A stretch of DNA of 35,617 nucleotides, taken from Acidobacteriota bacterium (GTDB taxonomy: Bacteria > Acidobacteriota > Terriglobia > Acidiferrales > UBA7541). The notes beneath the pieces are model-generated. The model did no database searches and was not told the DNA's origin. It was given only the letters and a program-made list of their open reading frames with translations. The DNA lies in the NCBI GenBank assembly GCA_003224145.1, contig QHYN01000217.1, positions 1 to 35,617 on the forward strand, written 5' to 3'. Each line of letters starts with the position of its first letter. Within the stretch, counting starts at the first letter, position 1. Shown here one piece after another: positions 29,520 through 31,577 of the stretch. The position numbers and the translations under genes are program-made.

Positions 29520-29782
29520 TCGAAACCCCTCCTGAATTCGGCCTGCGCCCGGTTCGCAGTACCTTGGCCCCACGCTCACCACCCTACCGGATGCCCACCG
29601 CAGTCGTCTAGAACAAAGACAACCTTCCGTTACCACAGCTCCTATGGCCACAGCTAGCTGGCATGGCGCCCGCCGCCTTCCGCTGTTCTACTCCTCACGG
29701 CCTGATCGCTTCCGCTAGAACGAACATCTTGCTTTTTCTCTCTTAAAACTAAAAACTAACTACCGATAACTGACCACTCCCC

Positions 29783-30478
29783 ATGGACAAACGCATCTCC
29801 TCTGCTGACGCCGGCATTGCGAACCTTAAAGACGGGGCCACCATTCTCATGGGCGGCTTCGGTCTTTGCGGCATCCCGGAAAATCTCATCGCCGCCGTCC
29901 GGCGCAAGGGAACAAAAAACCTCACCATCGTCAGCAACAACGCCGGCGTCGACGATTTCGGGATCGGCCTGCTCCTCCAGCAGCGCCAGGTCAAGAAAAT
30001 GATCTCCACCTACGTGGGAGAGAACAAACTCTTCGAGCAGCTGGTTCTTAGCGGCGAGTTGCAAGTGGAACTCAATCCGCAAGGCACGCTCAGCGAACGT
30101 CTTCGCGCCGGCGGCGCCGGCATTCCCGCGTTCTACACGCCCACGGGCTACGGCACCATGGTCGCCGAAGGAAAAGAAACCCGCGAATTCGACGGTCGCA
30201 TGGTCGTCATGGAGCGCGGCCTGCGCGGTGATTTCGCTTTCATCAAAGCGTGGAAGGGTGACCGCTGGGGCAACCTCATCTACCGCAAAACCGCGCGCAA
30301 CTTTAATCCCATGATGGCCACGGCTGCCGATTATGTCATCGCCGAAGTCGAAGAACTTGTCGAGCTCGGCCAGCTCCCGCCGGACCAGGTCCATACTCCC
30401 GGCATTTTCGTGAACGCCATTTTCCAGGGCCCCAAGTACGAAAAGCGCATCGAGCGCCGCACCGTGAGAAAGCATTAA
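29783..30478 (+). CDS. scoA: 3-oxoacid CoA-transferase subunit A
   Basis: The 231-residue A chain of a succinyl-CoA:3-ketoacid CoA-transferase, which activates acetoacetate or related 3-oxoacids. Family blocks: [33 protein letters not shown] (CoA-binding glycine loop), [25 protein letters not shown] and [15 protein letters not shown]. The length is normal. The B chain starts at 30906 rather than directly downstream, because an unrelated gene sits between them. Confidence 0.95.
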
Positions 30479-30491
30479 GGACTAGGTGGCC

Positions 30492-30884
30492 ATGAATCTG
30501 CTGGGAACATACACTCAACCACAGCGGGACAAATTGGCATCTTGGCTAGCGGCAGTGATCGTGGCGCTGATGTGCATCATATTTGGTTCGACATGGGTTA
30601 TCTTTCATCTATATTTACCAACAATTAAAATACTATCTCATATAACCGGGCCAAACCTCTCTTGGCCGGTGCGTTTTTTGCTTGCAACTCACTCATGGCT
30701 CTTGCCTCTATTCTTCTACAGCACTGGCGTGTTCACCATTGTTAAGGAAGGTCTGATTCGGGATTCACGCAAGAATCGCATTTGGAACGCGACAATTTTT
30801 GTTGTTGTTGCTGTTGTTGTGGGGCTCGTGCAGCTGGCTCTGTATTTGCAGGCCGAACAGATTCGCAAGGCTGTGAACCACTGA
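30492..30884 (+). CDS. AT-richer small membrane protein inside the CoA-transferase operon
   Basis: A 130-residue protein with three hydrophobic segments (about 17-41, 62-86, 104-124) and no motif I recognise. ATG 30492 follows GGACTAGGTGG; an in-frame GTG at 30486 is an alternative. Base composition and codon use differ from the neighbours: AT-rich runs and ATA, TTA and CTA codons occur around 30600-30650, while scoA and scoB use GC-ending codons. A GTT-rich run at 30801-30819 encodes a Val/Ala stretch of the last helix. It is in the same orientation as scoA and scoB, which normally adjoin each other, so it looks inserted, probably acquired from another source. Function unknown. Confidence 0.78.
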   Translation: MNLLGTYTQPQRDKLASWLAAVIVALMCIIFGSTWVIFHLYLPTIKILSHITGPNLSWPVRFLLATHSWLLPLFFYSTGVFTIVKEGLIRDSRKNRIWNATIFVVVAVVVGLVQLALYLQAEQIRKAVNH

Positions 30885-30905
30885 ACGTAGCTGTGAGCTA
30901 TTTCT

Positions 30906-31577
30906 ATGCCGCTGACCGAAGAACAAAAACGCGAACGCATCGCCCGCCGCATCGCCCTCGAACTTCGCGATGGCTATTACGTGAATCTCGGCATCGGCAT
31001 GCCCACGCTCGTTGCCAACTACGTTCCCAAAGGCATGGACGTCATTCTACAATCCGAAAATGGCATGCTCGGCGTCGGCCCGTATCCTCTCGTTTCCGAA
31101 GTCGATCCCGATCTGATCAACGCCGGCAAGGAGACCGTCACAGAGCTTCCCGGGACTGCTTACTTCTCCTCCGCCGATTCTTTCGCCATGATTCGCGGCG
31201 GTCACGTCGACCTCACCGTCCTCGGCGCGCTGCAAGTGGATGAAAAAGGAACCCTCGCCAATTGGGCCATCCCCGGCAAAATGCTCAAAGGTATGGGCGG
31301 CGCCATGGACCTTGTCGCTGGCGCCAAACGCGTCTTCATCGCCATGGAGCACGCCACCCGCGACAACAAACCGAAAATCCTGAAAAAATGCACCTTCCCT
31401 CTGACTGGAGTTGAAGTCGTCGATCACATCGTCACCGAACTCGCCGTCATCGACGTCACGCCGCAGGGCCTTCTCCTCCGCGAACTCGCTCCCGACGCCA
31501 CGCTTGAGCAAGTCCAATCCTTCACCGAACCTAAGCTCCTGCTCCCGCCCGGTGGCCCCAAGCCCATGCCGATTTAG
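30906..31577 (+). CDS. scoB: 3-oxoacid CoA-transferase subunit B
   Basis: The 223-residue catalytic B chain. The active-site Glu that forms the CoA thioester is Glu51 in [12 protein letters not shown]. Other blocks: [52 protein letters not shown] and [18 protein letters not shown]. It pairs with subunit A at 29783 despite the intervening gene. The stop is 6 bases before the next gene. Confidence 0.95.

Follow-up and report, generated by a model that had tools for sequence, protein, structure and literature searches.

The scoA-scoB locus and the gene between its subunits

The DNA analysed here (the window) is a stretch of 35,617 nt, contig QHYN01000217.1 of the Acidobacteriota bacterium assembly GCA_003224145.1. 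It includes scoA and scoB, the two subunit genes of a 3-oxoacid CoA-transferase, which are separated by 427 nt. This gap contains a single long open reading frame (ORF), referred to as X, on the same strand as both. The main finding is the site between the two subunit genes rather than gene X itself. The features concerned are the following:

29783-30478, + strand: scoA, 3-oxoacid CoA-transferase subunit A (TIGR02429, 284.7 bits, cut-off 128.5; PF01144)
30446-30464, + strand: direct repeat of 19 nt, left copy within the scoA end, CGCATCGAGCGCCGCACCG, coding for RIERRT
30492-30884, + strand: X, cargo gene, an ORF for a presumed 130-residue three-helix membrane protein, with relatives at the same junction and profile similarity to the PilC/GspF hairpin
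30885-30905, + strand: ACGTAGCTGTGAGCTATTTCT, probably what is left of the original spacer between scoA and scoB, resembling the 3′ end of empty-site spacers, e.g. ACTGTGAGCTTTCT in genome G034
30906-31577, + strand: scoB, 3-oxoacid CoA-transferase subunit B (TIGR02428, 323.7 bits, cut-off 243.6)
30936-30954, + strand: right copy of the direct repeat, CGCATCGCCCGCCGCATCG, in the start of scoB, coding for RIARRI

Both subunit models exceed their curated cut-offs, and the prediction of scoAB as 3-oxoacid CoA-transferase genes is clear. For X, the ATG at 30492 is a more likely start than the in-frame GTG at 30486 because it is preceded, at a distance of about 9 nt, by an AGGA; the reading frame stops at 30884. 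The 21 nt which follow are probably left over from the spacer that originally separated scoA from scoB.

The original prediction, made from the window alone, had described a same-direction gene for a protein with three transmembrane segments and no recognised family, of deviant composition and with rare ATA, TTA and CTA codons. This description was confirmed. X matches no Pfam or NCBIfam model at cut-off and PADLOC likewise assigns it to no family. Its GC content is 46.9% (50.8% at third codon positions) compared with 59.5% (75.8%) for scoA and 59.3% (70.9%) for scoB, and it includes eight ATA, TTA or CTA codons in 130, against none in scoA and one in scoB. Among the non-overlapping ORFs of at least 110 residues in the window, X has both the lowest GC content and the highest rate of these codons (6.1 per 100; the runner-up has 3.2). 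Low GC is not peculiar to this copy: the relatives of X found at the same junction in two other genomes, G024 and G004, have 49-53%.

Contents of the junction across the genus

The window was compared with 61 related genomes, of which 35 are congeners; all are drafts, with one genome per species. The named records most similar to the window are MAGs of Terriglobia and Acidobacteria, with scoB at 72-77%, from which a placement in Acidobacteriota/Terriglobia would follow. The junction was surveyed in all 31 congeners in which scoA and scoB lie on one contig. It is empty in 14 of these, with a gap of 3-82 nt. One junction, that of G009, is intermediate with 165 nt. Scars are found in G016 and G029, whose gaps measure 228 and 258 nt, and the 14 genomes with a filled junction have gaps of 337-2238 nt.

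The cargo is diverse. X is present once in the window genome (G000), once in G024 and twice in G004. M28 peptidase genes occupy the junction in six species (G010, G015, G017, G018, G026 and G030), in G015 together with a gene for a carotenoid-synthesis protein. G003 has a beta-lactamase-fold (serine) hydrolase gene on the strand opposite to the operon, and G006 has genes for a DUF2625 protein and an Imm1-like protein together with what reads as a C-terminal remnant of X. The cargo of G007, G008 and G011 consists of ORFs with weak or no family assignment, and DUF7693 is among the cargo families of the genus. All but one of the 14 filled junctions have their main ORF co-directional with the operon.

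Unrelated content thus turns over rapidly at this site: there are at least eight kinds of non-empty state, and at least 12 changes of state are required on a tree of scoA, scoB, sucC and sucD. Close sister species differ, as with G007, which has a 97-residue ORF, and G009, and the X-bearing G024 sits within lineages which carry M28 genes.

Several draft contigs end in or near the scoA-scoB region (G021:C474, G005:C88, G025:C313 and G011:C480), a possible sign that strains vary at this site.

Control junctions and occurrence outside the genus

Five other junctions between neighbouring genes were examined in the same genus. Inserts were found in 0 of 29 sucC-sucD junctions, 0 of 28 for the paralogous pair scoA2-scoB2, 1 of 30 for etfB-etfA, 0 of 30 for ilvB-ilvN and 0 of 29 for ilvN-ilvC. 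A long ilvB-ilvN gap in G029 was considered as an insertion and rejected, being the remainder of ilvB, and was not counted. Accessory genes are therefore concentrated at scoA-scoB beyond expectation, with 14 of 31 junctions filled compared with 1 of 146 for the pooled controls (Fisher p = 2e-11). The single control insert, in etfB-etfA of G020 (locus L360), is a 215-residue ORF without known family, so that scoAB is not the only operon of the genus that can be invaded.

The original prediction took adjacent A and B genes to be the normal case. Outside the genus but within its family this is borne out: none of 39 scoA-scoB loci has a gene-size insert and some are fused. It does not hold throughout more distant loci from other phyla, about 13 of 71 of which, many of them from Bacteroidota, have 400-1800 nt between the two genes. 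Tolerance of inserts at this junction, as judged from these spacings, may therefore extend beyond the genus. In the sister genus g27, scoA and scoB appear to be fused in one reading frame (L221, L226, L227, L231 and L233). In five distant, mostly Bacteroidota, records (L255, L287, L293, L309 and L317), a protein of 90-120 residues with the shared motif SGTSIGANIxEAQNAESKADFIHK is encoded between scoA and scoB; from its sequence, this recurring protein may be of a four-helix-bundle type.

Protein X, its relatives and its descent

A single-sequence search of the 61 genomes retrieved relatives of X from G004 and G024 only, with 31-35% identity, and another such search against genome contigs gave no match. 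A profile built from the four copies and run against 399 genomes belonging to the class and 396 belonging to the phylum found no further full-length relative. The relatives are always located between scoA and scoB, as two tandem copies in G004 and one in G024, and only these two genomes share the scoA-X-scoB order. X is thus, as far as these sequence searches indicate, not a conserved member of the operon, and conservation of the same gene with normal composition at the same place across the phylum was not observed.

Between G000 and G024, identity at third codon positions is 35% for X and 67% for scoA, a figure which may be inflated by codon bias. This difference makes simple vertical descent of X doubtful. 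The M28 genes at the same junction in other species, however, retain 50-61% identity at third positions. Their divergence is out of step with that of the species, which also counts against simple vertical descent. The X copies of G000 and G024 have therefore probably not simply descended with the operon from a common ancestor.

Apart from X itself, the four-copy profile matches almost exclusively ORFs of about 400 residues in the phylum (E values down to 7e-10). Those that were translated are PilC/GspF proteins, and the two scanned against Pfam carry T2SSF. In hhalign, the alignment of X residues 27-99 with the first PilC membrane hairpin has a probability of 96%; a reversed X profile, used as a control, gave no match. 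None of the four X sequences matches T2SSF in Pfam, either with two such domains or with a score above cut-off, and since X remains below the score of this model it was not placed in the family. X therefore resembles a small protein with a PilC/GspF-like hairpin rather than a family member. Like PilC/GspF (T2SSF, PF00482), it has a membrane hairpin with the pattern VPxFxxLFxxLGxxLPxPTRxxxxxS; in contrast to these proteins, it has 130 rather than about 400 residues and matches the hairpin region only (together with a C-terminal helix by eye). The AlphaFold2 model for the four sequences is poor (mean pLDDT 59) and shows three long helices and one short helix. Conservation is highest at second codon positions, followed by first and then third positions. 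This fits a real membrane protein, and X is presumably translated as such.

Scars, repeats and possible recombination signals

Local alignment of the scoB start of each genome with its own gap revealed copies of the scoB start in six gaps (G004, G006, G010, G016, G029 and G030). In G010 and G030 the M28 ORF itself opens with the scoB start. Two of the copies are chimeras which run on into a scoA end (LTEEQKRKRIERRKVRR, as read from the DNA sequence): one separates the two X copies of G004, the other two cargo genes of G006. In both, the join is at RIERR/RIARR, encoded by the direct repeat that the end of scoA has in common with the start of scoB. The window's two copies of this repeat are identical at 16 of 19 positions and form the only direct repeat found in 30380-31000; codon shuffling gives p = 0.01 for the window genome.

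No sign of a mobile-element origin of X was found: the 427-nt gap, with X as its only sizeable ORF, contains no inverted repeats at the ends of X and no integrase or transposase gene, an integrase gene being too large to fit. The one direct repeat near X is situated within scoA and scoB themselves, and no transposon-like target duplication around X was seen.

Two further types of repeat occur in the region. Tandem heptamers, (AACTGNN)n, are found in many congeners, including in scoA-scoB spacers (L034-L063), a single genome having as many as 38 exact matches to AACTGNNAACTGNNAACT and almost none to the reversed pattern. A degenerate run lies upstream of scoA in the window (29747-29771). These heptamers were considered as a recombination substrate and rejected: they are present in many genomes, and their counts show no obvious relation to junction occupancy. 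A short palindrome such as TGGCCGGTCTTTAGACCGGT, which resembles a REP-type element, lies directly 3′ of scoA in the spacers of seven genomes (G010, G013, G019, G020, G023, G034 and G035). In G010 there is one copy of it on either side of the M28 gene.

A probable hotspot of gene turnover within an operon

Among related species the junction is variously empty, scarred or occupied by unrelated genes, and it is filled much more frequently than the five controls. We interpret it as an intra-operon hotspot of gene turnover in this genus. X would be one passing cargo, and swapping and stacking of cargo would occur by recombination in scoA and scoB, partly through the repeat. We give this combined interpretation a probability of roughly 70%. 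One competitor, a lone foreign gene recently inserted in this lineage at an otherwise ordinary site, would explain why X is AT-rich, has rare codons and is missing from most congeners. It is very improbable given that unrelated genes occupy exactly the same junction, and not the control junctions, in other lineages and that the relatives of X in G004 and G024 are found in the same place. An ancestral, fast-evolving operon member with a role in ketoacid or CoA metabolism, lost from most species, also appears improbable, if somewhat less so. In its favour, X and its relatives occur solely between scoA and scoB (in G000, G004 and G024, with the probable remnant in G006) and their amino-acid pattern is constrained, second codon positions being the most conserved; yet third-position identity in the same species pair is far lower for X than for scoA, so that the copies are not simply co-descended, most species dispense with X and the alternative cargo is not metabolic.

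It might also be that relaxed spacing is the whole explanation, loosely packed operons with long spacers admitting any gene and scoAB being unremarkable among them. This is consistent with the one true insertion in etfB-etfA of G020, with the presence of AACTGNN repeats at many other places and with the scoA-scoB inserts of distant phyla. The sucC-sucD pairs and many etfB-etfA pairs offer little room for an insert because of their 4-nt overlap. Real spacers are present, however, in part of the scoA2-scoB2 pairs and in ilvN-ilvC (typically about 110 nt), where no insert was found, and the contrast between 1 of 146 and 14 of 31 makes this explanation unlikely.

Several points weigh against the hotspot interpretation. 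The Fisher test takes no account of shared ancestry, so that the minimum of 12 changes required by the tree is the more cautious measure. Some short cargo ORFs (97 and 275 residues) may not be genes. By codon shuffling, the direct repeat is statistically notable in only about half of the genomes, and the X of the window has no scoB-start scar beside it. In a test for excess recombination in the flanks, the tree of the other genes was rejected by scoA and scoB and also by sucD, etfA and etfB, so that the result does not point to the flanks in particular. Recombination is deduced from its products, neither a donor sequence nor an event having been seen directly, and with draft genomes, one per species, turnover within species is outside the view of the survey.

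If the junction is such a hotspot, the incoming foreign DNA would be the scoA-cargo-scoB segment of another species, recombining with the resident flanks. A double crossover in scoA and scoB would swap the cargo. If the left crossover instead took place at the RIERR/RIARR repeat, with the incoming scoA end pairing with the resident scoB start, the new cargo would be stacked behind the old one and leave a scoB-start::scoA-end chimera; the chimeras observed are the trace to be expected of such a crossover. Cargo in the direction of the operon would be tolerated and carried along on its transcription, and its later loss would leave a scar. More tentatively, and with considerable doubt, the subunit genes might act as a cargo-capture site that needs no dedicated recombinase. 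The short repeat would then be a recombination point at which incoming genes are stacked inside the operon and come under its promoter; some would also acquire the region of the scoB start codon, the M28 genes of G010 and G030 being examples.

The earlier interpretation is thus partly supported. Insertion of a gene into an operon that apparently stayed unbroken is supported by the empty site in many congeners, the intact flanks and the co-directional X. A membrane partner for ketoacid metabolism is not supported, as other species have unrelated cargo at the junction (peptidase, hydrolase, DUF2625 and Imm1-like proteins) or none. The hotspot, with its history of turnover, was overlooked. Guilt by association, which would assign X a ketoacid role from its position in a CoA-transferase operon, would probably mislead here. 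With content which differs among related species and scars which suggest a mechanism, the junction offers a simple natural system for the gain of genes by operons without mobile elements.

Comparison with known systems

The interior of an operon is expected to be avoided by incoming genes. In mosaic operons, where genes are displaced within an operon, a homologue is usually replaced. The present case is similar in that a foreign gene lies inside an otherwise vertically inherited operon, but differs in that unrelated genes are added between the subunits without replacement of a homologue. Some scoA-scoB pairs of Bacteroidota are likewise split by an insert of gene size, although the intervening genes are not those of this genus.

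Hotspots without mobile elements have been reported and attributed to recombination (allelic exchange) in flanking core genes, in a study which also states that new genes seldom integrate inside operons (Oliveira et al. 2017, PMC5635113). Like the hotspots of horizontal gene transfer between core genes described there, the scoA-scoB junction has diverse accessory genes between two conserved genes, fast turnover and no recognisable mobile element. In contrast to them, it separates the subunit genes of a single enzyme, and chimeras of those very genes are among its scars.
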